From Papaver somniferum (Eukaryota > Streptophyta > Magnoliopsida > Ranunculales > Papaveraceae), in the NCBI RefSeq assembly GCF_003573695.1, contig NC_039358.1:155610920-155674919 (forward strand): a stretch of DNA of 64,000 nt, given 5' to 3'. Made by a program: the position numbers and the translations under genes. Shown one piece after another: positions 31,361 through 57,121 of the stretch; the first letter of the stretch is position 1; each line of letters begins with the position of its first letter. The notes under the pieces were generated by a model that saw nothing but the letters and a program-made list of their open reading frames with translations, was not told the DNA's origin and ran no database searches.

Positions 31361-33087
31361 GGTTAGAGCATAGATAGGTCGACCTCGCATGCGTTGCTAT
31401 ATCAAGCATGTTTGTCAATGTTAGTGATCAAAACTACGAGTCTTGATTTCTAGTCTATTATAGCTAAGTCTCGGACTAGGATAGAAAAGTGTAGTTGAGC
31501 TCAAGGACTTCATGGCGATTCATTATACAACGACGAAGATCTACTCAAGGAACCGTGGAACTTCATCAACAAAAGGTATGTGGAGACTTGAACTTATCTA
31601 TCACTCAAAAGTCTATCTATTCTATCTCCTACTTCTTATGAGACAAAAAGTCGTATGTTATATAGACTGGATCATACACATTTGACATTTCGATCCGAGT
31701 ATTCACTACTTATCTTTTTCTCGAAATCGTGTGTTGGTAAAGCGTTTCGCTTTGATCAAGTTTATCTTCACCTAGTGACGAAAGTCATGAAAAGTTTCAA
31801 TTACTTTGAGAATTGCTCTGACGTGAAACGGTCTATGAATAACGGCTATATAACGTACTCTGAGAATGTCTCACTGATTGGAATGAGAGTTTAGATTACA
31901 TAACCATGTATTCCTTAATCCGAAGTTTTCGAACTTTGTTGATTGAGAGAAAACGGAGGAATTGGCTTTGCCGAGTCCGCGAACCCAGTCCGCGAACTGA
32001 CGAAACGAACTAATGGAAGTTCTCTTACCGAGAATTTCTGCTGGGATTTTCCAAAAACTCGTTTGCGTGTTTAGTCCGCGAACTGGGGGAAGTCTCTTTG
32101 CCGAGATTTTCTGCTGAGTTTGGAAAAATCTTCCGGTTGATTTAAGTCCGCGAACTTGTTTGTGAGCTTAATTGGTTATGATCTAAAGATGTGCTCTGAA
32201 CATGAAACTTAAATTACTAAGGAATGCTTTATGAAAATCGTGGCTATAAAGTTCATGAGCCGATTCATCGAATCGAATCATCTTTGTTTCAATTGTGTCT
32301 TGTGTAGTTACATAAGATCTCAAAGAAATTGAACAACTCTCTAACTAGTTTATTTGAGTCAATTGAACTAGTTATGGTGAAGAAGAACAGGGTTAATATG
32401 AAATGATCATATGGTTAACCTTTTGGGTTACTATGTTGAACCAACATACACGTACACGTTTGGGAATGGTTTTCACAAACCCAGTAAACGTCTACCCAAG
32501 TGTGTGTGACAAGCTAAGTTTTCGATCTAACGGTTGAGAAATATTAGCTTGAATCTAAATCAGGTTTTCATCTAACAGTGAATATGGATTGCTTTGTAAC
32601 TAAGGCAAAACCCTGATTTGAAGGCTATATAAAGGAGACATCTAGCAATGTGCAAAACTAATCCGCACACGTTTATGTGATACTAGTGCGCTCGCTAGAG
32701 TCGATTCTCCTTTAACCTATGGTTTTCTTCTCTAAAACCAGGTTAACGACTTAAAGACTTCATTGGGATTGTGAAGCCAGACCGATACTACTTTATCGTA
32801 GTTGTGTGATCTGATATTGCATCTTCTATCGTACGAGTACAATCTTTGATTGGCTCGAGATCGTGAGAGTTCTCCGATAGGAAAGATAAAGAAGTCACAA
32901 ACATCTTCGTTTCACTGTTTGTGATTCCTCGACAAACCGCTTGTGTAGTCAAGAAGGATTGTTGAGAGGTGATTGATTAATCTAGGTTGTTCTTCGGGGA
33001 TATAAGACCGGATTATCAATTGGTTCCTGTTCACCTTGATTTTATATCTTAAGACGGAACAAATCCAAGGGTTTTTCTGTGGGAGAC

Positions 33088-36000
33088 TGTAGATGGTGGA
33101 TTTTTGACAAGGGCTAAAATCGTAAACTCATAATTATACGAAGCTCTGATCCATCAATCAGACGTGAGTATTGAGACATGGGTCTCTCATCGAATTCTCA
33201 ACAGAGAGTACTTTCTCTCAGAGTACATGTAGATATGTAGTCTCACGACTGGACAACGGCATATCTCATGAATACTGAACACTTTCAGTGATTATTTCTA
33301 TATAGTATCACGAGATGGACGGCTACTAGACAGCTTGCTCTGCTAGTATAGAGCGATAACGTATTCAGGAACAAACAACGAGTTTACCCTGACTATATAA
33401 AGGATATGACTTACGGACAAGCTCATATCGGGATAATTAATGCTCCTAGACAGCTTGCTCTGCTAGTATAGAGCCACAACGTTAATTATTCCTAATTAAG
33501 ATTGATTCTGCCGTGACATTCACTACTGAATTCCCAAAATAATCTATTATTGCTCCTATTCCATGGTTGAATCCACGACTGGTCCCATGGAATGGCAATA
33601 ACAATTGCTCCTATTCCCTGGTCGAATCTGCGACTGGTCCCACGGAATGGCAATAAACAATTGTTCTGATTCTATGATCAAATCCACGACTTGATCTCAT
33701 AGAATAGCAATAACTGTATTATCTCATTACTCCGATTTCATGATCAAATCCACAACTGGTCTCATAAATGGTAATAGATAATCTTAATTACTCTGATTCT
33801 ATGGTCGAATCTACGATCCCATGGAATGGTAATGCTCACTTTATTATTCTGAATTCGTCGTCGAATCCTCAGCTGATCCTATGAATTAATAATAAACATC
33901 TTATTACTCAGTTTTGTGAATTATTCTCCATTGAATTCCACAATTAGTAATAAATAATCAACAACCGGGAGTCTGAGCTACCTCTAAGTAAGCCCCGATT
34001 CAAATGGTGAACGTGTATTCAACGACGATACACTAACAGTCACCGCACGAACGAGTATTTCAAAATACAACGAAACGATGAACCTATGCAAAATAAGGAA
34101 GAAAATAATAAATAATTAAAAATATTGACCAAGGTTCTGGGAACACGGACACACGACCTACCGACCGTGCCGTGGTCAGTTCCACGCCAGTTTTATATTT
34201 TTAATACATTTTTATTATTTTCCATGATTTGATGAAAATTCTCTCATCTGATCAAATCTCCTTCGTCTCGAGGAAGCTCCTCAGTTTCATGGTACTTCCA
34301 TGAATCCATAACAAATAATATAAAATTAAGGAAAGGAGTGTGGGGCGTGACCATTGGCCAACCGGCCATGCCTTGGTCCCAGCCGGCCCCACACCCCACG
34401 GTTCCTTATTATTTTATTATTTTATTATTATTATTATTATTTCTCTAATTTCATGAAAAACTCCTTGATTTCATGGTATTTTTTGCACAAATCATCAAAT
34501 AATAATAAAATAAAATAAAATTATGAAAACTTCTGGGACCGGGTCACTAGCCGGCCGGCCATGCCCTAGCCGGTCCCACGGGCCCTTTGCTTTATTATTT
34601 TATTATTATTTATCCTATTTTTCCTTGAATTCATCAAATTCCTTGATTTTATGGTATTTCTCTCAAATTAGGAAAAATTCCCTCAAATCATCAAAAATAC
34701 CTAAAAATATTAAAAAATTATGAAAAAACTCGTGGGACCGGTCCATAGCCGGCCGGCCATGCCTCCATGGTCCCACACGCCCGTGTTTTATTATTTTAAT
34801 ATTTTGCTTCCATGAACTCATGAAAACTCCTTCAATTCATGGAAACTCCCTAAATTCATCAAATTTCTCAAAATTCATGAATTTTTCATAAAATCATCAA
34901 AATAATATAAAATTAAGGAAAAGGCACCACAGGACCGTGGTCACGACCTGCCGATCATGCCTCAAGCAAGGAGGTCCCACGCCTCCTCATTCCTTATTTT
35001 ATAATTATTTTTCATCATCTCATGGTGTTTTCCTCAGTTTCGTTGAAACCCTAATTTTGGCATGGATGCTCAATTGCACGCCAGAAAATATCAAAATTCT
35101 CAGGACTGAGACGCGGACGCCTTGGGGACACGAGCACACTATCTTGAACGACCAAGATTGCCTCTTTGGCTCACGGAAGCCGGTCCCATCAATTTTCACA
35201 GTTTTGACCTAATTTGCACAATTGCACGTATTAGGTCCAAGACTCTTCCAAACCCTTTGGATTTTCATGAAGTGATCATCAGGAGTTCACGTGACTACCC
35301 AGGGCCGGTTTCATGCCCCCATGGTCGGTCCCTCACTCCGTCATAATTAATTAGGTTTTCTCACCTAAGGCTCAGACGAGCATTTTAGAATAAATGATTA
35401 AACCAGCATTTAATCATTCTTTCACCAACAAATCGTCAACTCTTCAGGAGTTCTTTGTATTTGCTCAGGTGAGCATATGGACACTACATGGTTGATCCAC
35501 GATCTCATGTAGCCGCTCTCTCCTTCGTCCCATTGTTAAACTTCTGACGAATCATGAATTGATCATCAATTGATCAAATTAGGGTTTCTGAATCCAAGGA
35601 TCATCATTCCAGATTCCAACCTTAATAATTTTACGACGACCTCATGGTCATTAATTTTATTAATTATGCTCGGTTCAACGACCAGTATTCTAATTAATAT
35701 TTTTGGTACGCTGCCAATAATCCATCAGATGAGCAACACATGCTCAGAAGATCAAATATTCAACAATTCATCACATGAGCAACACTTGCTCAGATGATAA
35801 ATAATTGCTCAAACCAAGGAATATTGGTTCAACAATCAATATTCAACGATCCATCGAATGAGCAATACTCGCTCACTTCATCGTAAAAACTATACCTCTG
35901 TCTCATGACATGTTCAATTCATGAGTTTCAGAACATCATGTTCAACTCAGCAACTACATGGACTCATCGTCCCATCAAACCACGAAGTCATCAATTGACT

Positions 36001-36694
36001 AACATACCACGAGACGTCAATCGTGTCACTTGGGGGGATATCACTTAGGGTTTTGGTCTGGCGGTCTACGGCACGTGTGTTCAAACACACGATGGAATGT
36101 GAGCAAGTCGTGCAATCAGTTGAAGGAATTCACGAGGTAGTGGGTGGAAAATCGACCAAGTCTCCACACGTTGAGCAACTGGTTTCAAACACGATCTCCA
36201 CTTCCCCACTCCTTGATTCCATCAACTGTCACACTTCATGGAATCATGGTGTCTAAAATTCCAGCAATATAAATAAGTCTCTGAATCATGATTGAATCAG
36301 CATCATCAGTATCATCAATCTCACGTCATCGACAACACGAGATCATCAACTCATCAATTGAGCAACTACTCTCAATTGAGCAATTTCAATCATTCAGAGC
36401 TTATCATATTCAGAATTCACACACCCCAATCTTTGATTACCATTGATTCCACACATTTCTCAGCTTCCCTCCTACAGATCAACCCATCCTCTCTTGTGAC
36501 CGAATTTACTCTGGAACGGTCATTGTCTTGATTTAGGCCGGAGTACTACAGATTGATCTCTCGAATCTAAAGCACCCCCTTTGCAGCGGTGCATCTGTGT
36601 GAGGTTTAACATTTCGCTCGGTTCGAGGAGTCTCCTCCGTACGGTCGTCTCCTCAATTCCTTAGAAACCAATAAATCGTTTTTCCCCATCTACA
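33088..36694 (+). repeat. Tat element 5' LTR
   Basis: 3607 bp, TGTAGATGG...CATCTACA. Palindromic ~55-bp units lie near 33535-33660 and GC-hairpin units at 34340-34975. A short conserved frame precedes the TATA box. It retains a 178-bp segment (35573-35750) missing from the 3' LTR. Confidence 0.95.
36268..36275 (+). promoter_or_regulatory. Tat 5' LTR TATA box
   Basis: TATAAATA in 'ccagcaatataaataagtctctg'. Transcription is expected to start about 30 bp downstream, giving R-U5 of about 390 bp before the primer site. Confidence 0.7.
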
Positions 36695-36835: not shown

Positions 36836-37930
36836 ATGGAAGGCAGAGGGATCCCAACTTTGGCAGAGTTGGATCAAATCCTAGAGGTCCATACCAGGAA
36901 CATGGACCTGATGAAGGAGACGATAAACCACATCCTCGACTTTCTCATCAGATTAACATCCGAGTTACGCGGTATCTCCGCTCCAGAAGCCTCAACACCG
37001 GGGACTGAGACGTCATCTGACCCTCAAATCAACAGCTTCACCACATACGAGAAGCCGGTGGAACAAGAGGTCACACATTTGATTGAAAATCTATGTGAAC
37101 TCATGCACTTCTCCAGGGATCAGCGCACAGACACATTTTCAGCACTCAACCAGATATCATCCAGCGTGCAAATAACGCCACCAACACCCTCAGTTGAAGA
37201 AGTCTCCCTAGTGCCTGGACATTCGATCGACAACATTTCTTTTGGAGAAGAAGATCGCATGACGGATGAAAGACACAACCGAGCATTGTATGTCACTGGT
37301 TTCATCAAAGGCACCGAATTTAGAAGAGCTCTCGTCGACACCGGTGCTTCCACCAACATTGTCACTATGAAGACTCTCAAGATGGCCAGATTCCCACAAG
37401 GTAAAATCGTTCGATATCCCATCCTAATGACAGGATTTGAAGGAAGTCAAAGCCATACATATGGATATGCATACATAGATTTGAGGGTGGGGCCGATTCG
37501 ATCGAAAGCAAAGTTTCATGTGATCGAGCAAGAACCTGAATACCACATAATACTGGGACGCCCATGGCTCCATGATAATAAGGTGGTTCCTTCAACATAC
37601 CATCAATGCATGAAGGCTCTGCTCGACAACAAGATCGTTCGCATTCCGGCTTCATCATCTCCTTATGCTCACGTCTATGATACTGAGTTCCTTGAATCTC
37701 AAAAAGGCGTCCCGGAACCTCCAAGCAGGATTCGCAGTACTCCACTTCCAAGCTGGAAGACTATCGAAAAGGCTGATAACTACGATCCGTTATCCTCAGC
37801 TACTAAAATGATCAAGTCACCTACCACACCGACTAAACGCCATAATGATCAAATCTCAACTCCAGGGTCAAACATCACGACCGATCGAGATGTAGAAGGG
37901 AGAGTCATTTATCGCCGACGGAAAGATTAG
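36836..37930 (+). CDS. Gag N-terminus fused to aspartic protease (364 aa)
   Basis: Residues 1-100 resemble the N-terminal part of Gag of the second Tat element (GIPTLAELDQI against PPPTIADLIKM, 57330-57400). The Gag core and zinc knuckle are absent. From about residue 150 the frame is a retropepsin: LVDTGAST at ~166-173 holds the catalytic Asp, and ILGRPWLH at ~238-245 is the conserved downstream block. It ends with a TAG in a readthrough-like context, after which the same frame continues into RT. The start is the first ATG after the leader. An internal deletion of gag in this copy is the simplest reading. Confidence 0.8.
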   Translation: MEGRGIPTLAELDQILEVHTRNMDLMKETINHILDFLIRLTSELRGISAPEASTPGTETSSDPQINSFTTYEKPVEQEVTHLIENLCELMHFSRDQRTDTFSALNQISSSVQITPPTPSVEEVSLVPGHSIDNISFGEEDRMTDERHNRALYVTGFIKGTEFRRALVDTGASTNIVTMKTLKMARFPQGKIVRYPILMTGFEGSQSHTYGYAYIDLRVGPIRSKAKFHVIEQEPEYHIILGRPWLHDNKVVPSTYHQCMKALLDNKIVRIPASSSPYAHVYDTEFLESQKGVPEPPSRIRSTPLPSWKTIEKADNYDPLSSATKMIKSPTTPTKRHNDQISTPGSNITTDRDVEGRVIYRRRKD

Positions 37931-37936: not shown

Positions 37937-39931
37937 ATCAGGGAGAACGATGAAAAGTCTCCACACCACGAAGAATCGTTTCAAAGTGAGCTATCACTTG
38001 AAGAAGAAGTCCAGGATTCCCCACGAAAACTACAGGACGACACTGACTCTACCACTGACGATCTCGAAATAATCAACATTGGGACTGAAGACGATCCAAG
38101 GCCAATCCTGATCAGTTCAACACTATCACCAGAGGAGCGGACCGAGCTGATAAAATTGTTGAAAGAATATCAAGATGTCTTCGCCTGGACGTACGAAGAA
38201 ATGCCGGGTCTGGATGACAAACTCGTCACCCATCACCTGCACATCGTCCCTGGTTCCAAAGCTTTCAAACAACCTCCCATACAATTTAGACACGAAGTCG
38301 AGGAGCAAATCAAGGTCGAAATTCATAAACTGTTAGCAGCAGGGTTCATCAAGCCTATTCTTCATCCAACGTGGCTAGCAAATGTGGTACCTGTTAAGAA
38401 TAAAAATGGTCAAATCAGATGTTGTGTCGACCTCAGGAACTTGAATAAATGTTGTCCAAAGTATGATTTCCCTCTACCCAACATTGACATGCTCGTCGAT
38501 GCAACCAGTGGTCATGGTATGTTCTCATTCATGGATGGCTATAGTGGGTACAACCAGATAAAGATGTATGAAAATGACGCCAACAATACTGCATTCCGTA
38601 CTCCCATTGGGAATTTTCACTACACTGTGATGCCCTTTGGATTAAATAATGCTGGTGCCACCTATCAACGAGCCATGACTACCATATTCCACGATATGAT
38701 GCACAAGCAAGTAGAAGACTATGTTGATGATGTGGTGGTAAAATCGAAGACTCGAGCATCTCATCTAGAAGTTCTAAGACATGTGTTTGAAAGATGCAGA
38801 GAATACAAATTAAAAATGAATCCTTTAAAGTGCGCATTCGGAGTTTCTTCCAGAAAATTCTTAGAATTCCTGGTCACGACTGAAGGGATCAAAGTCGACC
38901 CGGACAAGGAAAAAGCTATTACCACCATGCCTCCTCCACGAACCGTGAAGGAAATACAGAGCTTTATGGGCAAGGTAAATTATATTCGACGCTTCATTCC
39001 TGGATTAGCTCAACTTATTGCTTCGTTCACACCTCTGCTGAAAAAAGGAGCAAACTTCACCTGGACAGCTGTTCAACAAGAATCTTTCCATAAAATACAA
39101 CAGATATTATTGTCACCGGCCGTCATGAGGTCTCCAGTACATGGACGACCTCTGATTCTTTACACAGCCTCCAGTGACGTCGCCATCGGCGCACTCCTCG
39201 CTCAGGAAGACGACGAAAGCGTCGAACGACCGATTTACTACTTCAGCCGCACAATGAGAGACGCTCAACTCCGATATCCAAAGGCCGAAAGGGCATGCCT
39301 GGCATTGGTACATGCAATCCAGAAGTTCAGACATTACTTACTATGTAACAGGGTCGTACTCATCTCCAAAGCTGATCCCATAAAGTTCTTGCTATCAAAG
39401 CCAGCCTTGATAGGGAGAACAGCGAAGTGGCTACTCCAGATGTTGGAATTTGACATAACTTGCACGCCACCTAAAGCCATCAAAGGTCAAGCGGTCGCGG
39501 ACTTGCTCGCTGCTTTTCCAGGGGAAGACACAACAACACTGCATGAAGAAGTGCCCGGAGAATTCCCTGACATCTTGGTCATCAAGGAAGAAACATGGAT
39601 TCTATACTTTGATGGATCTGCCACCCCTAGTAGTGACACTGGAGGAGCGGGCGTAGTACTGGTGTCTCCATCTGGTGAAGTTTTCTCACATTCGTTCAAG
39701 TTGGATTTCCACTGCACCAACAACTCCGCGGAATGTGAAGCCTTCCTATTAGGATTATCTTTGGCCAAGCAAGCAGGAGCAACACACCTCGAGATAAGGG
39801 GAGATTCAAAATTATTGGTCAACCAGATGAATGGAACATATTCTCTCAAAGAAATCACACTTGCTCCATTCAGAACCGAAGCTCAGCGACTGTTGACCTA
39901 TTTTGCTGATGCAACAATCGTCCATACTTGA
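37931..39931 (+). CDS. pol: Reverse transcriptase, Ty3-type RNase H and second (archaeal-type) RNase H
   Basis: The frame continues from the protease through the TAG. RT blocks: 'VPVKNKNGQIRCCVDLRNLN', 'GYNQIKM', 'MPFGLNNAGATYQRAM' and the active site YVDD at 38720-38731. The Ty3-type RNase H follows (ASSDVAIGALLAQ, 'YPKAERACLALV'). Then a second RNase H has FDGSA, NNSAECEAFLLGL and RGDSKLLVNQM, three of its catalytic acidic residues. The TGA at 39929-39931 cuts the second RNase H before its final Asp block (…NRHVDCLA, still readable downstream). That TGA could be a C-to-T change in a CGA codon. The protein would act in cytoplasmic virus-like particles to copy genomic RNA. Confidence 0.9.
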   Translation, partial: QLIRENDEKSPHHEESFQSELSLEEEVQDSPRKLQDDTDSTTDDLEIINIGTEDDPRPILISSTLSPEERTELIKLLKEYQDVFAWTYEEMPGLDDKLVTHHLHIVPGSKAFKQPPIQFRHEVEEQIKVEIHKLLAAGFIKPILHPTWLANVVPVKNKNGQIRCCVDLRNLNKCCPKYDFPLPNIDMLVDATSGHGMFSFMDGYSGYNQIKMYENDANNTAFRTPIGNFHYTVMPFGLNNAGATYQRAMTTIFHDMMHKQVEDYVDDVVVKSKTRASHLEVLRHVFERCREYKLKMNPLKCAFGVSSRKFLEFLVTTEGIKVDPDKEKAITTMPPPRTVKEIQSFMGKVNYIRRFIPGLAQLIASFTPLLKKGANFTWTAVQQESFHKIQQILLSPAVMRSPVHGRPLILYTASSDVAIGALLAQEDDESVERPIYYFSRTMRDAQLRYPKAERACLALVHAIQKFRHYLLCNRVVLISKADPIKFLLSKPALIGRTAKWLLQMLEFDITCTPPKAIKGQAVADLLAAFPGEDTTTLHEEVPGEFPDILVIKEETWILYFDGSATPSSDTGGAGVVLVSPSGEVFSHSFKLDFHCTNNSAECEAFLLGLSLAKQAGATHLEIRGDSKLLVNQMNGTYSLKEITLAPFRTEAQRLLTYFADATIVHT

Positions 39932-41660
39932 CGGACTAACAATAGGCATGTTGATTGCCTAGCAACTCTCGCCTCCAAGCTGCAATTCGAAGGAGCACAG
40001 AAAACGATCACTGTACAGAGGCGTACAGTATCTTAGACTTGGCTCACTCAGATCGAAGACATTCCAGCGAACGATTGGCGAGCACCCATCATTCATGAAT
40101 TGAGCAGCTCTATTTCAGAAGGCCAAGTCATCCTCAAGGAAGTAAAGAACTACTTCTTGCTTCATGGAGGGCTATACTATCGAAACCCTGATGGATCTCT
40201 ATCACGATGTCTTGGGAGCGACGAAGCGGAAGAACAACTCAAGCGCATACATGAGGAAGTCTGTGGGCAAACGTTAGTGGTAACACTTTATAGAAAGATT
40301 CAAAGAATGGGGTACTAATGGCCATCCATGGAGACTCAGTCAAGAGCTTTACAAGGATCTTGTCCTGATTTCCAAACACCTCCTCATCACTTGGAGGTTT
40401 TGACGGTCCACCACACTGGGGACTGGAGGGAGCCTTACATCAAATACCTCCGGGACAACGAACTACCTCTGGAAAAGAAGCAAGCAGTCAAACTCATTCA
40501 GAAATCTAAGAGATTCGTCTATCTCTATGGGATCTTATACCGCAAAATCTTTGGTGGAAATTTACTGAGGTGCTTAGCCGAACATGAAATCCCTACAATC
40601 CTGAAGGAAGTACATGATGGAGAACATCAAGGAAAGAGGAAACTATTTCTTCAAATTCATGAGAAATATTATTGGCCAACCATGGAAGATGATGCAGCCG
40701 CACACGTTCAGAGGTGTCACCAATGCCAAACCCATGGTAATCTCACCACTCCTTGTCTCCCGTTGAATTCTGTGAATAGTCGTGGCCTTTCTACAGCTGG
40801 GGACTAGATATCATTGGGAAGATCAATCCAGCATCTTCAAAACAACATGAATACATCATCACTGCGACAGAGTACTTCACCAAGTGGGTCGAAGCTATTC
40901 CTCTTCGAAGCACCACTGGAGTTACGATTGCCGCCTTCATCAAAGAGCACATAATATGCAGATTCGGAGTTCCTAAGCATATCATCACAGATAACGGAAC
41001 TCCTTTTGCCAATCAAGATGTTGAGAAGCTGCTCAATAAATATGGGATCAAACAAATCTTCTCCACGCCTTACTATCCACAAGGAAATGGTCAAGCAGAA
41101 AGTACCAACAAGACTTTGGTCAGGATTATCAGTCGGACGATTCATGACAATCCTCGATCATGGCATGAGCAATTACCCATGGCTCTATGGGCTTACAGAA
41201 CTGCACCAAGGAGCTCGATCGGTACTTCGCCATATTCCCTTGTCTATGGAGCCGACGCCATACTTCCAGCAGAAATCAAAGTTCCCTCAGCCAGGATTGC
41301 AGCATCCAGTGGTGTACAATGGGATGAGGCCGAAATCTCCAGATCAAGAATCGCTGAGCTAGATATGCTGAATCAAGGAGAACCAAGGTGGAAAAATATG
41401 TGGAAGCTTACAAACAGAGGATCTCCAGAGCCTACAACAAAATGGTAAGACCTCGAACATTTCAAGTAGGAGATTTGGTATTAAAGACGGCAAAGCACAT
41501 TCAACAAGACATGTCTGCTCCTAAGTTCTCTCCTAAATGGGAAGGGCCATATGTTGTTATCAAAGCAGTGTCTAGCGGATACTACAAAATTTTAGCAATC
41601 AATGGAGGAAAGGAAGGAAACATCATCAATGGCAAATGGCTCAAAGCTTATTATGCCTGA
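39932..41660 (+). pseudogene. Integrase region, broken by stops and two frameshifts
   Basis: Same frame as RT, with TAG near 40034 and TAA at 40316-40318, then the zinc-binding domain ending in CHQCQTH near 40715. A frameshift near 40778 precedes the catalytic core, whose DDE residues are at 40807 (WGLDIIG), 40990 (TDNGT) and 41098 (QAEST). The last two are 35 residues apart, as expected. 'YYPQGNGQAEST', 'WAYRTAPRSSIGTSPYSLVYG' in two parts and a second frameshift near 41380 follow. The C-terminal domain (VRPRTFQVGDLVL, KFSPKWEGPYVV) ends at TGA 41658-41660. It would insert cDNA into host DNA but is not functional here. Confidence 0.88.
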
Positions 41661-41853
41661 TCCATGAAACAAACTACCTCTTCATCATTTCAAGCATTTT
41701 CAAAATGTAATTTCATTCCTCCAAAGAGCATGCGAATGCTCCTTTGTTCATTAAACATTTCATAAATGAGCAAAATTCGTTCATACCATGATCAACTGTT
41801 TCACCTAACTAGAAACTCAGATTTATCAAAAAACAACAACCACAAATGCTCAC

Positions 41854-42844
41854 TCAGAGCAAACCATCCAGCAACGGATAATCCCTGTAAGAAGCCTCGT
41901 CAAGCTTCTTCTGAAAAATCTTGGTCTTTGCCTTCAAGTCTTCGACCGCTTTCTCAACCCTTGCTGACTCCAGAGCCAGTATCCTCTCCTCATCCAGTAA
42001 AGCTGCATTCATGGAAATTGCATCAGCAGCCTCTGCCGCCTTATGAACCTTGATTATCTCAAGACGACGACGGAGCCAGCTTACATTGAATCGCAATATC
42101 TCACAATTCGAGATCATTTCATCCCATTGGTGCAGTTCATGGTTTTTGACGTCTCGCAAGTGCATCTGATTCATTTCCTCGATGATCGGCAATAGCCCCG
42201 CTACCGTGGTTAAAAGGGTTGGAAGAAAACCTTTCCACACTTCTGTGGTAGCAATGTGACCATACTTCTTCCAGATCTTGGTGTACAGAGACGCATGACA
42301 TTTGGGAATCACGAATCCGCCGACCATTTCATTGTCTGGGAAGGTATTAATCAATGGGGCTTCGAATAAAAGTCCAGCGGTTGGGTATTCACGAGCATGG
42401 ACACTGTCTCCAGTCTCCACGGATCCTGCAGAATCTTCACATGCCTGGTTACTGCTTTCCTCAACCTCAACCACGGTCACGGACTTTCCACTCTTTCTTC
42501 GTCTATCGACGACGACACGGACATCCGCCTACGATGAAACGAAGGAGTGTTAATCCCGGGACTCAGTACAATCTCAAGAGTCATAGGTTTACTTACAGAC
42601 GATCCAGCTTCAGCACGAGCCGATCCATACCGGGCAGGAGCTCTAACAGTCCGCTTAGGCCTTGCATTATGAGGAGTAGCATTCTTCTTACAGTCCTACG
42701 ACAAATCATTCTCTTGTGATCAACAATCTCGATTGAACAGAGACAAGAAAGGAGAAGAAGAAGTGTACAACTTACTGAGATAGACGTTGCTATTTCACGC
42801 TTCGACTGAAGATCATCTTGAGAAGAAATGCTATTGCTCGACAT
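41854..42844 (-). CDS. Antisense three-exon gene of the Tat element, PEARLI-4-like domain (280 aa)
   Basis: On the minus strand: exon 1 42844-42776 (ATG, 23 codons), exon 2 42695-42597 (33 codons), exon 3 42528-41854 (TGA). Both introns (80 and 68 bp) begin GTAAGT, end in TAG and are phase 0. The spliced frame has no stop. Residues ~30-75 are basic. From ~100 on: EYPTAGLLFEAP, VGGFVIP, LYTKIWKKYGHIATTEVW, then FNVSWLRRRLEIIK and a C-terminal coiled-coil. This pattern recalls the plant PEARLI-4 (phospholipase-like) domain, whose role is unclear; that call is from memory. A homologue lies at 61174-61854. It ends tail-to-tail with pol, 193 bp away. Confidence 0.7.
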
Positions 42845-42937
42845 GACGGCAAGAGGTAGGATCAAAACTTCTCTGCACGATGAAACTAACTCAGGAATGG
42901 AAGAAATTTTTGCGTGGATCACATATTTGGAGTCTTG

Positions 42938-42950
42938 AAAATATATATAT
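42938..42950 (-). promoter_or_regulatory. Candidate promoter of the antisense PEARLI-4-like gene
   Basis: The minus strand has TATATATATTTTC about 95 bp before the ATG at 42844. About 50 bp further upstream is AAACCCTA (42998-43005 on the plus strand), a telo-box-like element common in plant promoters. The arrangement fits a short 5' UTR. Function is inferred. Confidence 0.4.
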
Positions 42951-43336
42951 CGGATATCATCACTCGCGAATAGTCAATTCAGTTACGAGTTTCGCTGAAA
43001 CCCTAGGCTTCAAAGACAGATACTGAAGACGCGGAGGAAAAACACACAATGGGGACTGACCATCACGGGTCGGATGGGACACGTGTCCTTGTACACGTCA
43101 AGAATTCTCAGTCGTGTGTTATATTACTTCTCATGAGAATCGACAAGCCATGATGAATTTGGATGTGTGGACATTGGTCCATGTCATGGATTAGAAGGTA
43201 TCGACGTTAACAAAATGTTCATCATTCAGAAGAAAAGTCTAATTGAAGTAAAGTCATTTAAACAATCAAAAGAAAGATATCCACTATGAAGACTAAAAAG
43301 GGAATGCTCTAACGTCTAAATAATATGCAAGTAAAA

Positions 43337-43891
43337 CTACTCGTCGGACTCATCCGAATTGTCAGCTTCATCGTCACTGTCCTTCTCGGAATCATCTTCT
43401 TCAGAGTCACTGTCAGGATCATTGGTGAAGTCCGGTGGACGAAAGATAACATCATCATATGAATCCGAGTTATCTTCTGTTGCAGCTTCAGCTTCAATTT
43501 TCTTCATCATCCTCTGATGCTCTCTTTCATATCGATCAGGCTTAATGTAACGCTCAGATGGTTCCCATGTGATCTCTTCTTCAGAAGCATCAGCATCAGA
43601 ATCAGAAGGCACTCCATCCAAGAATCGACGCTTCTCATCAACCCTCTGTCTCTTACGCCGGGTGCGATCTTTCTCACATTGACGGGCATCCTCCTTTTTG
43701 TCTTCAGCTCCTCTTTTCTTGAGTTCAGCAAAAGAGACTCTTCGCTCACCCAAGGGAACATTAGGCTTCGCCCCTTCATGGGTAACCCTAGCCTTTGATT
43801 TCGCTACAGGAGCGTCAGAATCCTCATCAGAAGAGCCAGAAGAAGAAGAGGAATACCAGTAATCATAATTGTTGTTATTGTTGGTTGACAT
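43337..43891 (-). CDS. Antisense acidic, low-complexity protein (about 184 aa)
   Basis: ATG at 43891, stop TAG at 43337. The N-terminus is Asn-rich, followed by YDYWYSSSSSGSSDEDSD. The middle (~45-100) is strongly basic (Lys/Arg runs such as DRTRRKRQRVDEKRR) and the C-terminus is almost entirely Asp, Glu and Ser. It looks disordered and possibly nuclear. The ATG lies 3 bases after a good acceptor (cttccggttccag|AAAATG), matching a 5' UTR exon at 44865 upstream. It lies upstream of the PEARLI-4-like gene on the same strand. I do not recognise the family. The second Tat copy has an ATG and a short acidic frame at the matching place (63210). Confidence 0.55.
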   Translation of the reverse strand: MSTNNNNNYDYWYSSSSSGSSDEDSDAPVAKSKARVTHEGAKPNVPLGERRVSFAELKKRGAEDKKEDARQCEKDRTRRKRQRVDEKRRFLDGVPSDSDADASEEEITWEPSERYIKPDRYEREHQRMMKKIEAEAATEDNSDSYDDVIFRPPDFTNDPDSDSEEDDSEKDSDDEADNSDESDE

Positions 43892-43912
43892 TTTCTGGAA
43901 CCGGAAGATCAA

Positions 43913-44864
43913 AGATTACTACTATGTAAACGAACCAACATCAGCAAAAAGGGTAACTCTGAACTTTTTACAATTCTACTAATGATAATAGTTATGCCGT
44001 AAGAGTTAACACCTCAAAATCGTGCGTCTCTTCGAAAACTGCAAAAACGAACGAAACTTTATTTAATCTCCGAAACTGATTTTTCATGAAATCACGGACA
44101 CAATTTTCATAATGTGAGCATTCACACAACTGACCTATGAAGTTTATAACAATAAAATATTTCATCATAAATATATTGTCTATCTTCGAAGGTTCCTCAA
44201 AACACACGCTTTGATTTTTCAAAAAAAAAACCCAGCAATTAATGCAACATTGCTTACATAAATTCTCAAGAATTTTATCTAATGAAAACAAATTCATGCA
44301 AATAAAATATATCATCATATTTTACACAATATATGTCACGGCTGCATATATATATATAAAAAATTATTTTCCTTCGTATCGTCGTTGTTTGTCTTTAAAA
44401 CGAAGGTTTATTTCAAAAATATTGTGAAAGCTCACATCTCATACATATGATAAAGTTTTGTATTTACATGAAATCTCATAAGAAAATTTTTATCACTGGA
44501 CACAAGTTCATCATACATATTTTCCTTCGTGTCGTCGTTATTTGTCTTTAAAACGAAGGATTATTCCGATTTCATGAAAATTCACTTCTTTTATGATGAA
44601 ACCTTGGTATACATGAAAGCTCATACACTAAGTTTTATCACTGGACCTAGGTTCATATTTAAAAAAAAAAATCTCTCCTAAATCAGAGATTATAGTTAGT
44701 TTTCAAAACTAACGATCGAACGAACGTACGTTTTCAAAAACGAGGGTTTTTTCATAAAACTCACACTAATATATACACATGTATATAATTTCATCTTGAT
44801 CAAGGCATGAACAATTCATTAAGTTCATAGAATCAGCAAAAATCAAAAAAAAAAAAAAACGTAC
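43913..44864 (-). other. Probable 5' UTR intron of the antisense acidic gene
   Basis: On the minus strand a CCCAG|GTACGT donor (exon ends at 44865) pairs with the acceptor ending at 43895, giving an intron of about 970 bp. It is AT-rich, contains the two hairpin repeats at 44371 and 44524 and a palindromic 'atatatacacatgtatata' near 44770. Homologous sequence occurs at 63220-64000. Confidence 0.45.
44371..44559. repeat. Two 36-nt hairpin repeats, 153 bp apart
   Basis: 44371-44406 and 44524-44559 each read CCTTCGT, 22-nt loop, ACGAAGG, with almost identical loops. The second Tat element has the equivalent pair at 63678-63710 and 63825-63857 with stem CTCTCGT/ACGAGAG, a compensatory change. 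Confidence 0.65.
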
Positions 44865-45005
44865 CTGGGAGCGTCGGCCGGAAATTGGCCGACGGCGGCA
44901 ACGATGGCGACTGGCGGCGGCAGGTGGATCGGGCGGCGGCGAAAATTCAACTTCTCCTGCTCGTGAAGATGGAGAGGTGATGAAGAGTTGGTCGTGAAAA
45001 AAATA
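44865..45005 (-). other. Candidate 5' UTR exon of the antisense acidic gene
   Basis: On the minus strand, a GC-rich stretch (GCCGCCGCC-type) without an ATG follows a TATA-like box and ends in the consensus donor CAG|GTACGT at 44865/44864. It is the only strongly GC-rich non-LTR piece of the element. The start (~45005) is estimated from the TATA-like box. Confidence 0.45.
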
Positions 45006-45030
45006 TAAAAGAAAATAGGAGGGTTAATCC

Positions 45031-45097
45031 CTTTTATGCTAATTTTTACTTCCAAAACCTAATTTTCTAAGGATTTCCTTATTGGGCCCGGCCCGCG
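45031..45097 (-). promoter_or_regulatory. Candidate antisense promoter with TATA-like box and site II motifs
   Basis: The minus strand has CGCGGGCCGGGCCCA (45097-45083), containing GGGCCCA, a site II type element bound by plant TCP factors, and then CATAAAAG (45038-45031). It lies between the 3' LTR and the presumed first exon, so it could drive antisense transcription from just inside the LTR. Confidence 0.4.
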
Positions 45098-45320
45098 AAT
45101 CCTAACTAACCACGGACTCGTCATCCAAACCAGCTGTTCAACACCAATTTATGCTCATCAAACGACGCTCCAATCATGACATTGAAGCCTTTATCAAGTC
45201 GTGGTTTGCTCATGCTCTCTAAATCCGGTAACGTCTCAACTTACGACTAAGTTCAATTACTGGTATTATTTATGGCCGGAAAATCACCATTTAATGCTGA
45301 CTGAGAAACACAGCTTTCCT

Positions 45321-45339
45321 CAGTAAGAAGGGGACTTAA
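45321..45339 (+). other. Tat polypurine tract
   Basis: 'cagtaagaaggggacttaa' directly before the 3' LTR start TGTAGATGG at 45340. GGGGACT-type sequences also recur elsewhere in both Tat elements. Confidence 0.75.
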
Positions 45340-48300
45340 TGTAGATGGTGGATTTTCGACAAGGGCTAAAATCGTAAACCCATAATTATACGAACCTCTG
45401 ATCCAGCAATCAGACGTGAGTATTGAGACACGGGTCTCTCATCGAATTCTCAACGGAGAGTACTTTCTCTCAGAGTACATGTAGATATGTAGTCTCACGA
45501 CTGGAAAACGGCATATCTCATGAATACTTAACACTTTCAGTGATTATTTCTATATAGTATCACGAGATGGACGGCTCCTAGACAGCTTGCTCTGCTAGTA
45601 TAGAGCGATAACGTATTCCGGAACAAACAACGAGTTTACCCTGACTATATAAAGGATATGACTTAACGACAAGCTCATATCGGGATAATTAATGCTCTTA
45701 GACAGCTTGTTCTGCTAGTATAGAGCCAAAAAGTTAATTATTCCTAATCACAATTGCTCATATTCCATGGTCGAATCCACGACTGGTCCCATGGAATGGC
45801 AATAACAATTGCTCCTATTCCATGGTTGAATCTGCGACTGGTCCCACGGAATGGCAATAAACAATTGTTCTGATTCTATGATCGAATCCACGGCTTGATC
45901 TCATAGAAAAGCAATAACTATATTATCTCATTACTCCGATTTCATAATCGAATCCACAACTGGTCTCATAAATGGTAATAGATAAATCTTAATTACTCCG
46001 ATTCTATGGTCGAATATACGATCCCATGGAATGGTAATGCTCACTTTATTATTCTGAATTCGTATTCGAATCCTCAGCTGATCCTATGAATTAATAATAA
46101 ATATCTTATTACTCAGTTTTGTGAATTATTCTCCATTGAATTCCACAATTAGTAATAAATAATCAACAACCGGGCGTTTGAGCTACCTCTAAGTAAGCCC
46201 CATTCAAATGGTGAAAGCGTATTCAACGAAGATACACTAACAGTCACCTCACGAACGAGTATTTCAAAATACAACGAAACGATGAACCTATGCAAAATAG
46301 GGAAGAAAATAATAAATAATTAAAAATATTGACCAAGGTGCTGGGAACACGAACACACGACCTACCAACCGTGTTGTGGTCAGTTCCACGCCAGTTTTAT
46401 ATTTTTAATACATTTTTATTATTTTCCATGATTTGATGAAAATTCTCTCATCTGATCAAATCTCCTTCGTCTCGAGGAAGCTCCTCAGTTTCATGGTACT
46501 TCCATTACAAATATTATAAAATTAAGGAAAGGAGTGTGGGGCGTGACCATTGGCCAACCGGCCATTCCTTGGTCCCAGCCGGCCCCACACCCGACGGTTC
46601 CTTATTATTTTATTATTATTTTATTATTATTATTATTTCTCTAATTTCATGAAAAACTCCTTGATTTCATGGTATTTTTTGCACAAATCATCATATAATA
46701 ATAAAATAAAATAAAATAATAAAAACTTATGGGACCGGGCCACTAGCCGGTCCCACACGCCCTTTGCTTTATTATTTTATTATTATTTATCCTATTTTTC
46801 CTTGAATTCATCAAATTCCTTGATTTTATGATATTTCTCTCAAATTAGGAAAAATTCCCTCAAATCATCAAAAATACCTTAAAATATTAAAAAATTATGA
46901 AAAACTCGTGGGACCGGTCCATAGCCAGCAGGCCATGCCTCCATGGTCCCACACGCCCGTGTTTTATTATTTTAATATTTTGCTTCCATGAACTCATAAA
47001 AACTCCTTCAATTCATGGAAACTCCCTAAATTCATCAAATTTCTCAAAATTCATGAATTTTTCATAAAATCATCAAAATATTATAAAAAATTAAAGAAAA
47101 GGCACCACGGGACCGTGGTCACGACCGGCCGATCATGCCTCGACCACGGCGGTCCCAAGCCTCCTCATTCCTTATTTTATAATTATTTTTCATCATCTCA
47201 TAGTGTTTTCCTCAGTTTCTTCGAAACCCTAATTTTGGCATGGATGCTCAATTGCACGCCAGAAAATATCAAAATTCTCAGGACTGAGACGCTGACGCCT
47301 TGGAGACATGAGCATGCTATCTTGACCGACCAAGATTGGCTCTTTGGCTCACGGTAGTCGGTCCCATCAATTTTCACAGTTTTGACCTAATTTGCACAAT
47401 TGCACGTATTAGGTCCAAGACTCTTCCAAACCCTTTGGATTTTCATGAAGTGATCATCAGGAGGTCACGTGACTACCCAGGGCCGGTTTCATGCCCCCAT
47501 GGTCGGTCCCTCACTCCGTCATAATTAATTAGGTTTTCTCACCTAAGGCTCAGACGAGCATTTTCGAATAAATGATTAAACCAGCATTTAATCATTCTTT
47601 CACCAACAAATCGTCAACTCTTCAGGAGTTCTTTGTATTTGCTCACGTGAGCCTATGAACACTACATGGTTGATCCACGGTCTCATATAGTCGCTCCTTC
47701 CTTCGTCCCATGGTTAAACTTTTGACGAATCATGAATTGATCATCAATTGATCAAATATTCAACAATTCATCACATTAGCAACACTTGCTCAGATGATAA
47801 ATATTTGCTCAAACCAAGGAATATTGGTTCAACAATCAATATTCAACGATCCATCGAATGAGCAATACTTGCTCACTTCATCGTAAGAACTGTCGCATGA
47901 CATGTTCAATTCATGAGTTTCAGAACATCATGTTCAACTCAGCAACTACATGAACTCATCATCCCATCAAACCACGAAGTCATCAATTGACTAACATACC
48001 ACGAGACGTCAATCGTGTCACTTGGGGGGTATCACTTAGGGTTTTGGTCTGGCGGTCTACGGCACGTGTGTTCAAAGACACGATGGAACGTAAGCAAGTC
48101 GTGCAGTCAGTTGAAGGAATTCACGAGGTAGTGGGTGGAAAATCGACCAAGTCTCCACACGTTGAGCAACTGGTTTCAAACACGATCTCCACTTCCCCAC
48201 CTTGATTCCATCAACTGTCACACTTCATGGGATCATGGTGTCTAAAATTCCAGCAATATAAATAAGTCTCTGAATCATGATTGAATCAGCATCATCAGTA

Positions 48301-48686
48301 TCATCAATCTCACGTCAAACTGACAACATGAGATCATCAACTCATCAATTGAGCAACTACACTCAATTGAGCAATTTCAATCATTCAGAGCTTATCATAT
48401 TCAGAATTTACACACCCGCAATCTTTGATTACCATTGATCTCACACATTTCTCAGCTTCCCTCCTACAGATCAACCCATCCTTTCTTATGACCGAATTTA
48501 CTCTGGAACGGTCATTGTCTTGATTTAGGCCGGAGTACTACAGATTTATCTCTCGAATCTAAAGCACCCCCTTTGCAGCGGTGCATCTGTGTGAGGTTTG
48601 ACATTTCGCTCGGTTCGAGGAGTCTCCTCCGTACGGTCGTCTTCTCAATTCCTTAAAAACCAGCAAATCGTTTTTCCCCATCCACA
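45340..48686 (+). repeat. Tat element 3' LTR
   Basis: 3347 bp. Compared with the 5' LTR it has a 178-bp deletion at 47751 between ATCAAAT repeats and a shortened palindrome near 46731-46765. The terminal CATCCACA has one change from CATCTACA. TATA box TATAAATA at 48257-48264. Confidence 0.95.
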
Positions 48687-49371
48687 GAGACAGATTTATC
48701 CTTTGATAGACTTTTCTATGTGAGACGGATTCGTTTATTATCAATTCTGCGATTTTGGGTTGCAGCAACTCTTAGTTGTGGGTGAGATCAGCTAAGGCAA
48801 TCAAGTGCGCAGTATCCTGCTGGGATCAGAGGCGTAGGAGTACAACTGTACCTTGAATTAGTGGGAGACTGATTGAGGTTCAACTGTAGTCCAGTCTGAA
48901 GTTAGATTGTAGTAGGCTAGTGTCAGTAGCGGCTTAATACAGTGTGTATTCAATCTGGTCTAGGTCCCGGGGTTTTTCTGCATTTGCGGTTTCCTCGTTA
49001 ACAAAACTTCTGGTGTTTGTGTTATTTCTTTTCCGCGTTATATTTTTTTATAATTTAAATAATACAGGTTGTGCGTTAAAGATCATCAATTGGAAATCCG
49101 ACCTTTGGTTGTTGATTGATATTGATTGATCCTTGGACATTGGTCTTTGGTACCGTCCAAGTTATCTCTCTTTGATAAAGACTCGCAGATTTCCATTTGC
49201 TTGAGTAAATATCAAATCGTGAGATTGAGATATAAACTCTTTGATATATCTTTTTATTGATTGAGTCTAACTGTCTACTTGATTCTCATAAAAAGTATAT
49301 TGGAGTTTGTCCATACAGATTGCTAAGCGAAATATTGGGTGGTGTTGTTAGACCCCCGCTTTTTCACGTTA

Positions 49372-52440: not shown

Positions 52441-53332
52441 AGAACTCTCCCCCATTATGTTGTCATCCTATCGCAAGAACAAAAGAACAACAACAAAAAG
52501 CAACCTTTACCAGAGAAAGGTTGAATCGGTTTTAACTAATGTGTGCCAATAGCAAAAGTTGAAAACCCAAAACACACATGTTTATGCTAAACACAACTCA
52601 TATAAACACAAATTGATTCAACACATTGTGACTTTTTACATTTGAGTCTCAATCAGAACACCTTATGATCCTTTGATAAATCCTACCAACATGGGCTAGA
52701 ACTTAATCCCGCTAAATCAAAAAGCCACACAAACCATAAGGGTTCACACATATGAGATTGAATATTAAGGTTATGAAAACCGAAATCAAACATCCCATAA
52801 ACATATATCAATAATATTAAACATTCAAGCACATGCTATGTAATCGAAAAAACTAACACAAGAAAAATCATAAAATAATAACTTTATTCATAAATAATAT
52901 ATAGTTTTATTCAGCAATAGACCTTATACAATAATTGAAATAATCAAAAACTGATGTCTATTCTTCTTCTAATCATGAGTCTTATGAAGATCGCTTTCGA
53001 ATACTGGATTAAAATTCTTCTGAGCACTTCCCTTTCCAATAGATGATATGTTCATCTCAAACAGTTGAGAATGAAGATCATCTAGTACTTCTTTTGAATC
53101 CTTTATCATCAGCTCATGGTGTCGAATGCAACTTCTAACAATAAGAATCTGTTTTCTTAGAGAATCTTGAAGATTATCATGTTGAGAGACATCATGAGTT
53201 TCAATCATAACCGATGCACACAGTGCTAAATCATCAAGGGATGATCCTTGTTTTACCGATTTCTCCATTGACGCAAGATGGTCTTCTTCCAGGCAAGAAG
53301 AATATATTTATCCCAAAGAGTAGATTGTTACC
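52441..53332 (-). mobile_element. Antisense family-2 internal fragment
   Basis: Reverse complement of the region after gag in the sense copy (matching 12680-13195), including 'gattacatagcatgtgcttgaatg' and 'ggtaaaggttg...ttgttgttcttttgt'. Probably the continuation of the antisense element seen at 3763-10098. It ends where the second Tat element inserted. The joint at 52440/52441 shares AGAA microhomology. Confidence 0.8.
52969..53268 (-). CDS. Unrecognised antisense family-2 ORF (99 aa)
   Basis: ATG at 53268. Predicted to be helical and coiled-coil-like, with SLRKQILIVRSC and SKEVLDDLHSQLFEMN. It occupies the place of the second ORF (12221-12661) of the sense family-2 copy but similarity is weak. 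The frame may begin further upstream, where the Tat element cut it. Possibly a gag tail or accessory ORF. Confidence 0.3.
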   Translation of the reverse strand: MEKSVKQGSSLDDLALCASVMIETHDVSQHDNLQDSLRKQILIVRSCIRHHELMIKDSKEVLDDLHSQLFEMNISSIGKGSAQKNFNPVFESDLHKTHD

Positions 53333-56300
53333 TGTAGATGGTGGATTTTCGACAAGGGCTAAAATCTTAAACCCATAATTATACGAACCTCTGATCCAGC
53401 AATCAGACGTGAGTATTGAGACGCGGGTCTCTCATCGAATTCTCTGACTGAGGATACTTTCTCTCGGAGTACATGCAGATATGTAGTCTCACGACTGGAC
53501 AACGGCATATCTCATGAACACTGAACAGTTTCAGTGATTATTTCTATATAGTATCACGAGATGGACGGCTCCTAGACAGCTTGCTCTGCCAGTATAGAGC
53601 GATAACGTCTTCAGGAACAAACAACGAGTTTACCCTGACTATGTAAAGGATATGACTTACTGACAATCTCATATCGGGATAATTAATGCTCCTAGACAGC
53701 TTACTCTGCTAGTATAGAGCCATAAAGTTAATTATTCCTAATTATAATTGCTCCTATTCCATGGTCGAATCCACGACTGGTTCCATGGAATGGCAATAAC
53801 AATTTCTCCTATTCCATGGTCGAATCCACGACTGGTCCCATGGAATGGCAATAACAATTGATCCTATTCCATGGTCGAATCCACGACTGGTCCCATGGAA
53901 TGGAAATAACAATTTATCTTATTACATGGTCGAATCCACGACTGGTCCCGTGGAATGGAAATAACAATTGCTCCTATTCCATGGTCGAATCTGCGACCGG
54001 TCCCACAGAATGGCAATAAACAATTGTTCTGATTCTATGATCGAATCCACGGCTTGATCTCATAGAATAACAATAACTATATTATCTCATTACTCCGATT
54101 TCATGATCGAATCCATAACTGGTCTCATAAATGGTAATAGATAAATCTTAATTACTCTGATTCTATGGTCGAATCTACGATCCCATGGAATGGTAATGCT
54201 CACTTTATTATTCTGAATTCGTAGTTGAATCCTCAGCTGATCCTATGAATTAATAATAAACATCTTATTACTCAGTTTTGTGAATTATTCTCCACTGGAT
54301 TCCACAATTAGTAATAAATAATCAACAATCGGGCGTCTGAGCTACCTCTAAGTAAGCCTCGATTCAAATAGTGAAAGTGTATTCAACGACGATACACTAA
54401 CAGTCACCGCACGAACGAGTATTTAAAAATACAATTAAACGATGAACCTATGCAAAATAGGGAAGAAAATAATAAATAATTAAAAATATTGACCAAGGTG
54501 TTGGGAACACGGACACACGACCTACCGACCGTGTCGTGGTCAGTTCCACGCCAGTTTTGTATTTTAATACATTTTTATTATTTTCCATGATTTGATGAAA
54601 ATTCTCTCATCTGATCAAATATCCTTCGTCTCGAGAAAGCTCCTCGGTTTCATGGTACTTCCATAAATCCATAACAAATAATATAAAATTAAGGAAAGGA
54701 GTGTGGGGCGTGACCATTGGACAACCGGTCATGCCTTGGTCCCAGCCGGCCCCACACCCCACGGTTCCCTATTATTTTATTATTATTATTATTTCTCTAA
54801 TTTCATGAAAAAAACTCCTTGATTTCATGGTATTTTTTGCACAAATCATCATATAATAATAAAATAAAATAAAATAATGGAAACTTATGGGACCGAGCCA
54901 CTAGCCGGCCGGCCATGCCCTAGCCGGTCCCACACGCCCTTTGCTTTATTATTTTATTATTATTTATCCTATTTTTCCTTGAATTCATCAAATTCCTTGA
55001 TTTTATGGTATTTCTCTCAAATTAGGAAAAATTCCCTCAAATCATCAAAAATACCTAAAAATATTAAAAAATTATGAAAACTCGTGGGACCGGTCCATAG
55101 CCGTCCGGCCATGCCTCCATGGTCCCACACGCGCGTGTTTTTTATTATTTTAATATTTTGCTTCCATGAACTCATGAAAACTCCTTCAATTCATGGAAAC
55201 TCCCTAAATTCATCAAATTTCTCAAAATTCATGAATTTTTCATAAAATAATCAAAATATTATAAAATTAAGGAAAAGGCACCACAGGACCGTGGTCACGC
55301 CGGCCAACCATGCCTTTGCCTCGGCGGTCCCACGCCTCCTCATTTCTTATTTTAAAATTATTTTCCATCATCTCATGGTGTTTTCCTCAGTTTCGTCGAA
55401 ACCCTAATTTTGGCATATTTTCTCGAATGGATGCTCAATTGCACGCCAGAAAATATCAAAATTCTCAGGACTGAGACGCGGACGCCTTGGGGACACAAGC
55501 ACGCTATCTTGGCCGACCAAGATTGGCTCTTTGGCTCACGGAAGCCGGTCTCATCAATTTTCACAATTTTGACCTAATTTGCACAATTGCTCGTATTAGG
55601 TCCAAGACTCTTCCAAACACTTTGGATTTTCATGAAGTGATCGTCAGGCGGTCACGTGACAACCTGGGCCGGTTTCATGACTCCCTGTTCGGTCCCTCGC
55701 CTCGTCATAATTAATTAGGTTTTCTCACCTAAGGCTCAGACGAGCATTTTTGAATAAATGATTAAGCCAGCATTTAATCATTCTTCCACCAACAAATCGT
55801 CAACTCTTCAGGAGTTCTTCGTATTTGCTCACGTGAGCATATGGAAACTACATGGTTGATCCACGGTCCCATGTAGTCTCTCCCTCCTTCGTCCCATGGT
55901 TAAACTTCTGACGAACCATGAATTGATCATCAATTGATCAAATTAGGGTTTCTGAATCCAAGGATCATCATTCCAGATTCCAACCTTAATAATTTTACGA
56001 CGGCCTCATGGTCATTAATTTTATTAATTATGCTCGGTTCAACGACCAGTATTCTAATTAATATTTTTGGTATGCTGCCAATAATCCATCAGATGAGCAA
56101 CACATGCTCAGACGATCAAATATTCAACAATTCATCACATGACCAACACTTGCTCAGATGATAAATATTTGCTCAAACCAAGGAATATTGGTTCAACAAT
56201 AAATATTCAACGATCCACCGAATGAGAAATACTTGCACACTTCATCGTAAGAATTATACTTCTGTCTCATGACATGTTCAATTCATGAGTTTCAGAACAT

Positions 56301-57064: not shown

Positions 57065-57067
57065 AAT

Positions 57068-57084
57068 TGGAGACCATAGTGGGA
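57068..57084 (+). other. Diverged tRNA-Arg primer-binding site
   Basis: TGGAGACCATAGTGGGA differs at two positions from the site at 36698-36714 and is at the same distance from the LTR. Confidence 0.65.
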
Positions 57085-57121
57085 GATCATTCTATCGGTT
57101 GCAATCTCACAACTCCACAAG

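Follow-up and report, generated by a model that had tools for sequence, protein, structure and literature searches.

A Tat-type LTR retrotransposon of opium poppy (Papaver somniferum) very probably carries a true accessory gene, antisense to gag-pol and placed between pol and the 3' LTR, whose coding sequence is divided by two short introns. Here, we describe this gene in a window of 64,000 nucleotides (the whole stretch of DNA analysed; NCBI RefSeq assembly GCF_003573695.1, contig NC_039358.1, positions 155,610,920 to 155,674,919, forward strand) and in diverged copies elsewhere in the genome. The gene structure, the conservation of introns and splice signals in three subfamilies, selection on exon 3, promoter-like motifs and a constant place within the element support this reading; transcription, splicing, translation and a nuclear role are what we infer from these features of the sequence. 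Antisense genes of plant retrotransposons have so far been found through unbroken reading frames; a conserved, selected and intron-bearing gene shows that searches of that kind can miss or truncate antisense genes.

The host element

The element is one complete LTR insertion (Table 1) with LTRs that are 96.1% identical over 3357 aligned sites, and a homologous site without the insertion lies at 15871-15875 of the same window. Further LTRs of this long type occur at 17320-21087 and 53332-57121; their long pieces match the LTRs of the element at about 88-95% identity. A protease domain is found in ORF 36836-37930, the ORF scanned for domains upstream of RT, and ORF 38156-39931 contains RT_RNaseH at residues 331-432 and RVT_3 at residues 485-590. 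A second (archaeal-type) RNase H beside the RT-RNase H is described as a mark of the Tat lineage (Neumann, 2019, PMC6317226), and the RVT_3-type domain found here between RT and integrase supports assignment of the element to the Tat lineage of Ty3/gypsy, as an earlier note made from the letters alone had proposed. That note also called pol of this copy damaged, and pol is indeed broken into several frames.

Table 1. Positions of the element, its antisense gene and neighbouring motifs, numbered from the first nucleotide of the window
Feature	Position	Strand	Description
5' LTR	33088..36694	+	TGTAGATGG...CATCTACA; 3,607 bp; TSD GAGAC at 33083-33087
pol: RT, RNase H, second RNase H (RVT_3)	38156..39931	+	Pfam
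pol: integrase remnants, several frames	40328..41660	+	zinc finger in ORF 40328-40807; tail ORF 41388-41660
Exon 3	41854..42528	-	224 codons + stop; strong purifying selection; mostly helical in low-confidence model
Intron 2	42529..42596	-	68 nt, GTAAGT...TAG
Exon 2	42597..42695	-	99 nt, 33 codons, basic RPKRTVRAPARY segment
Intron 1	42696..42775	-	80 nt, GTAAGT...TAG
Exon 1	42776..42844	-	69 nt, ATG, 23 codons
TATA-box-like ATATATATAT	42941..42950	-	about 100 nt before the ATG
AGGGTTT	42998..43004	-	upstream of TATA
ORF A, second antisense ORF	43337..43891	-	acidic, acidic C-terminus; ATG at 43891, stop TAG 43339-43337
3' LTR	45340..48686	+	3,347 bp; TSD GAGAC at 48687-48691

Within the Tat lineage, Retand elements carry antisense additional ORFs which, according to the available text of the survey, lie like the poppy gene between pol and the 3' LTR, in a region of 3-6.6 kb and in many copies (Vicient, 2025, PMC11963269). 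The second RNase H between RH and INT, a Retand trait held in common with Ogre, is present in the poppy element, and the 3,679 bp from the end of pol to the 3' LTR (41661-45339), which hold the antisense gene and ORF A, fit the Retand range of 2,933-6,566 bp. The LTRs, at 3,607 and 3,347 bp, lie outside the 315-1,194 bp of the published Retand clusters (315-1194 bp vs 3.3-3.6 kb; PMC11963269). TRP28, reported there in 97% of clusters and lacking in two, has no match in the poppy element: a Pfam scan for TRP28 (PF04195) gave none in the 280 aa protein, the exon 3 ORF or ORF A. The element is not filed as Retand within Tat, as the antisense region fits and the LTR length and absence of TRP28 do not. 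Ogre is, like the poppy element, an intron-bearing member of the Tat lineage, but its intron is in sense orientation, between gag-pro and RT, and together with a plant mobile domain eORF this intron serves as a criterion for Ogre (PMC6317226).

Gene structure in the window

On the minus strand of the window copy, three exons joined at two introns give 280 codons and a stop. The earlier reading of this structure (donors GTAAGT, acceptors TAG, introns of 80 and 68 nt, both junctions in phase 0) was confirmed exactly in its coordinates, and so was its placement on the strand opposite pol. The gene does not overlap pol: 41660 is the last position of the pol tail ORF, and the stop codon of the antisense gene occupies 41856-41854. 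Exon 3 has an open frame of exactly 675 nt, and the first in-frame stop upstream of it is the TAG of the intron 2 acceptor. The predicted protein has a basic N-terminal part (RPKRTVRAPARY, RRRK), and an AlphaFold model of exon 3, for which only four sequences went in, is mostly helical (mean pLDDT 49.5, pTM 0.25).

The chance of such an extension was estimated with exon 3 fixed and the 808 nt upstream shuffled 2000 times with dinucleotides preserved, allowing extension to an ATG through at most two introns. An equal or longer extension was obtained in 18 of 2000 shuffles with a strict GTAAGT donor and in 30 of 2000 with GTRAG. Extension by chance in one copy is unlikely on these figures, which are not overwhelming evidence; comparative evidence is therefore needed, and it is the comparison of subfamilies that secures the gene structure.

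Copies and subfamilies

Subfamily A consists of 40 copies including that of the window, scored from 2013 first-look candidates of a genome DNA search (97-100% identity); these copies were chosen by their match to the gene, so that comparisons of gene with flank within A are biased. Across 25 colinear A copies, exon 3 differs by 0.020 vs 0.054-0.119 for 43913-45339, which comes partly from this gene-based picking. Searching the genome at the protein level with the NCBI model P0003 yielded 15213 first-look candidates, of which 102 were scored, and a diverged branch from this search forms subfamily B (30 loci, L048-L077). Subfamily C is a third branch of three loci (L079-L081). The B gene alignment includes 25 loci, with L053, L056, L057, L073 and L074 left out for missing or disrupted exons, and L078, an A-like copy with an internal deletion, was also excluded from alignment. 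Many copies are dead, the spliced frame being interrupted in 22 of 40 A, 17 of 25 B and all three C copies.

The start of the 3' LTR is found upstream of the gene in 27 of 30 B loci (L048, L071 and L072 gave no match in the stretch examined). Two loci, one of B (L082) and one of C (L083), were tested for the pol tail, and each has it downstream of the gene on the other strand (in two frames in L083). Since diverged branches share this location, the gene is a lasting part of the element and not a one-off capture.

Intron conservation

Both introns are at the same positions in A, B and C. Intron 1 measures 76-86 nt in A (83 in 20 of 40 copies), 70 nt in 21 of 25 B copies and 66-67 nt in C; intron 2 measures 68 nt in 33 of 40 A copies, 77 nt in 23 of 25 B copies and 75-76 nt in C. 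Exon 1 is 69 nt long in 24 of 25 B and two of three C copies, and exon 2 is 99 nt long in 25 of 25 B and again two of three C copies. Donors are GTAAGT, with GTAAGC at intron 2 in most B copies and in C, and the acceptor is TAG in subfamily A but CAG in the other two, a few mutated copies aside. Copies that retain GT and AG at both introns number 36 of 40 in A, 22 of 25 in B and 3 of 3 in C. Because the length of intron 1 shifts between subfamilies (mostly 80-83 nt, then 70, then 66-67), the frame relation that exons 1 and 2 would have without splicing is lost, and the frame read unspliced from the ATG ends by codon 85 (A), 42 (B) or 41 (C). Gaps per 100 sites between A and B amount to 3.26 in intron 1 and 1.90 in intron 2, and to 0.39, 0.18 and 0.37 in exons 1 to 3. 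Conserved positions, GT-AG ends and lengths that change faster in the introns are what was found, as is characteristic of spliceosomal introns.

Substitution rates by themselves fail to set introns apart from exons. Substitutions per site between A and B are 0.41 in intron 2, 0.199 in intron 1 and 0.16, 0.234 and 0.227 in exons 1 to 3; intron 1 diverges less than exon 1 in both A-C and B-C; among A copies, intron 2 and exon 3 vary alike (0.026 and 0.025), and among B copies the figure for intron 1 (0.057) is lower than that for any exon (0.083-0.086). The alignment of other family members that the earlier note had suggested was run, with the outcome that intron positions and splice signals persist while lengths change; in the comparison of exons with introns that it also suggested, exon 3 has a low dN/dS, and substitutions alone give no separation. 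It is positions, splice signals, lengths and open frames that argue for the introns.

No match to the joined A-type junction 1, as an intronless retrocopy would carry, was found in 2.7 Gb at up to 3 mismatches, which is expected if copies arise only from sense RNA. L078 (C3:99440648), where ORF A and exon 3 lie only a short distance apart, was considered as an intronless copy and rejected, having intron-size gaps at both places and a deletion from ORF A to exon 1; at this locus (C3:99440300-99442155) the deletion fuses ORF A directly to exon 1, and the gaps between exons 1, 2 and 3 remain. Five loci with long frames of 663-724 aa were likewise considered, and the three that were examined (L058, L067 and L079) keep both introns.

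Promoter motifs

Nearly all copies (39 of 40 in A, 24 of 25 in B, 3 of 3 in C) have a TATATA or TATAAA that begins 96-107 nt ahead of the ATG; of shuffled controls, a fraction of 0.17-0.27 have such a TATA anywhere in 160 nt. Further upstream, AGGGTTT, which we take to be telo-box-like, is present in 38 of 40 A, 23 of 25 B and all three C copies. The ATG of exon 1 itself is kept in 38 of 40, 22 of 25 and 3 of 3. A promoter of the gene's own had been suggested earlier, and the sequence motifs, above all the conserved TATA about 100 nt before the ATG, lend it backing of their kind. They fit a promoter like that described for gene23 of maize Grande (Vicient and Casacuberta, 2020, PMC7264820).

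Selection on the exons

Exon 3 is under strong purifying selection, with dN/dS of 0.12 (A-B), 0.06 (A-C) and 0.14 (B-C). In the codon-position test that had been proposed for the predicted exons, near-fixed differences in exon 3 are dominated by the third position (positions 1/2/3: A-B 23/20/86; A-C 11/10/70; B-C 18/11/60). Amino-acid constraint is only modest in exon 2, with dN/dS of 0.37, 0.63 and 0.58 for A-B, A-C and B-C (A-B codon positions 8/2/9), and none is clear in exon 1, with 0.51, 0.44 and 0.91 (A-B codon positions 1/4/3). When all six frames of exons 1 and 2 were compared, the coding frame was not the best conserved in every pair, and its amino-acid identity was not clearly above that of other frames. 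Within subfamily A (40 copies), variants found once (77/66/68 at codon positions 1/2/3) and those shared by two or three copies (13/16/18) lack a clear codon bias, which agrees with the copies being dead; on their own, close copies would thus not have settled whether the exons code. The protein-level case rests on exon 3.

Alternative explanations

One alternative is that only exon 3 codes, as an antisense ORF of about 208 codons, with exons 1 and 2 an untranslated leader and the introns part of that leader or unspliced. Nearly all of the detected selection lies in exon 3 and none clearly in exon 1, and one NCBI model, P0001, is the exon 3 ORF alone; against these points, exons 1 and 2 hold frame and length while intron lengths change, their coding frame has the fewest stops of the six in each comparison, both splice pairs are retained in three subfamilies, and the exon 3 ORF read alone starts with GTG and has its frame closed by the intron 2 acceptor itself, so that we consider this reading quite improbable. 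A unit that works mainly as RNA, through double-stranded RNA or transcriptional interference, with its protein irrelevant, would agree with the antisense RNA regulation proposed for such elements (PMC7264820), but an exon 3 dN/dS of 0.06-0.14 needs protein-level selection; this is very improbable, and RNA as the sole function of the antisense unit is largely refuted. The three exons might instead be the 3' part of a four-exon antisense gene that starts with ORF A (43891-43337) and has an intron of about 0.5 kb between. In the models P0003, P0007 and P0013, ORF A and exon 1 are spliced together in frame, and near-fixed differences in ORF A are distributed 35/38/65 by codon position (17 A vs 26 B sequences, the A set being the window and 16 copies chosen from the 39 others). 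The TAG stop, however, is present at the end of ORF A (GACGAG-TAG) in the window and 22 of 30 B loci, with an earlier break or altered stop in the other 8; the donor read there is weak (GA/GTAGYT in most); and conservation of the exon 1 ATG and of the TATA before it extends to C. We regard the four-exon gene as unlikely, though worth serious consideration, and the long form joined to ORF A and the separate short gene could both exist.

Recent capture of an intron-bearing host gene in antisense by one element is improbable. Exon 3 is weakly similar to a plant family, Pfam PEARLI-4 (PF05278; E 0.0037 and 0.0071), with scores of 17.4 and 16.4 bits that fall below the curated gathering cut-off of 29.9. 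The shared location of the gene in diverged subfamilies, with the pol tail on one side and the 3' LTR on the other, speaks against a recent capture, which three such subfamilies refute, and the 14 proteins that a profile search gave at E <=0.1 comprise 10 named as Papaver somniferum and 4 without an organism name. Capture of a host PEARLI-4 gene was rejected, given that the similarity is only weak and that the profile search gave no named host family; an ancient capture of a host gene may have taken place. The PEARLI-4 similarity of exon 3 (42528-41854, minus strand) is colinear and is also seen for P0004. The only PDB sequence match, a sialyltransferase (E 0.0098), was taken as chance. An accessory gene belonging to the Tat-type element itself is the reading that we carry forward.

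Proposed mechanism and known systems

For this accessory gene, RNA polymerase II would start at the gene's own TATA promoter (about 42950) and produce an antisense pre-mRNA, from which the spliceosome would take out the two short introns; export and translation would then yield a protein of 280 residues, basic in its N-terminal part and helical in its C-terminal part. Grande, for whose antisense protein such a role has been proposed, and HTLV suggest by analogy that this protein is most likely a nuclear regulator of the element. We know of no relation between the HTLV antisense proteins and the poppy protein, and the HTLV genes would be similar in their way of working and not of the same family. 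The introns would outlast retrotransposition because in the sense genomic RNA they occur solely in reverse-complement form, in which they escape recognition by the spliceosome. If this is true, one element may use its opposite strands for two tasks, a sense RNA serving mobility and a host-like spliced mRNA serving regulation, and retrotransposons can retain spliceosomal introns long-term on the strand that is not packaged. Exon junctions arise only from genuine antisense mRNA, so that a simple assay for them would separate expression of the gene from contaminating DNA or sense RNA.

Antisense ORFs in Tat elements, a promoter of their own in one, and spliced antisense genes in HTLV are already known from the available texts of the sources (PMC11963269; PMC7264820; Romerio, 2023, PMC10186651). 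Gene23 of maize Grande is antisense, has its own upstream promoter and encodes a protein reported as nuclear; it is set beside the poppy gene by description, and introns, which the poppy gene bears, are not mentioned for it in the available text of the review, which calls for a search for antisense and spliced transcripts (PMC7264820). HBZ of HTLV-1 and APH of HTLV-2/3/4 are spliced antisense genes of LTR retroelements with nuclear-localised regulatory proteins; they belong to animal retroviruses and are described as starting in the 3' LTR (with a TATA-less promoter in HTLV-1), whereas the poppy gene has a candidate TATA promoter (PMC10186651). An antisense homing endonuclease gene with a spliceosomal intron is described in an rDNA group I intron, a mobile element as in the poppy case, but element, host and protein are other ones (PMC9548176). 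In the same genus, Papaver Retand sublineages, Retand being called the most abundant lineage, are described with two additional ORFs said to encode transmembrane proteins (PMC12582370).

The Retand antisense ORFs were counted as uninterrupted ORFs, unlike the intron-bearing poppy gene (PMC11963269), and one published survey counted uninterrupted ORFs from 250 codons upward, another those from 600 bp, or shorter ones with TRP28. The word intron is absent from the main texts of PMC11963269, PMC7264820 and PMC12582370, and antisense is also absent from that of PMC12582370. Among the best-ranked titles and abstract openings in the literature on spliced or intron-bearing antisense retrotransposon genes, no plant case with conserved introns was found. 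We suggest tentatively, while leaning slightly against it, that Tat elements hold a hidden class of intron-bearing antisense accessory genes, with TATA promoters of their own and perhaps leader introns, that is invisible to surveys of uninterrupted ORFs, and that two adjacent antisense units may here be alternatively joined into one multi-exon gene. Before the ATG of ORF A, B copies (L049, L061) have AGAG/GTAAGAG ... GGTTTCAG/AAAATG, which resembles a short leader intron (about 73 nt in L049), with TTTTTTGCAG further upstream; the window (about 43980-43890, minus strand) has no such donor.

Gene models of diverged copies

NCBI gene models of this kind can draw on RNA-seq. In models of diverged poppy copies, junction 1 (SIS/D or equivalent) is at the same residues in P0003, P0007, P0010 and P0011, and junction 2 (EAGSS/AD or equivalent) is at the same residues in P0005, P0006, P0007, P0011, P0012 and P0013. 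Departures at junction 1 are P0013 and P0005, which begin exon 2 a few codons earlier, and P0012, which joins elsewhere; at junction 2, P0003 is without four residues and P0010 leaves exon 2 for another place. Several models remove pieces of exon 3, P0001 is predicted as described above, and an N-terminal extension of P0012 was not found in the window or in any locus examined. Some diverged copies of the gene have already been entered among the annotated poppy genes with host-gene names that mislead: P0005, P0008, P0011, P0013 and P0014 hold pieces of the antisense ORFs and are named starmaker-like, TFIID subunit 11-like, nucleolin 1-like and secreted acidic protein 2-like.
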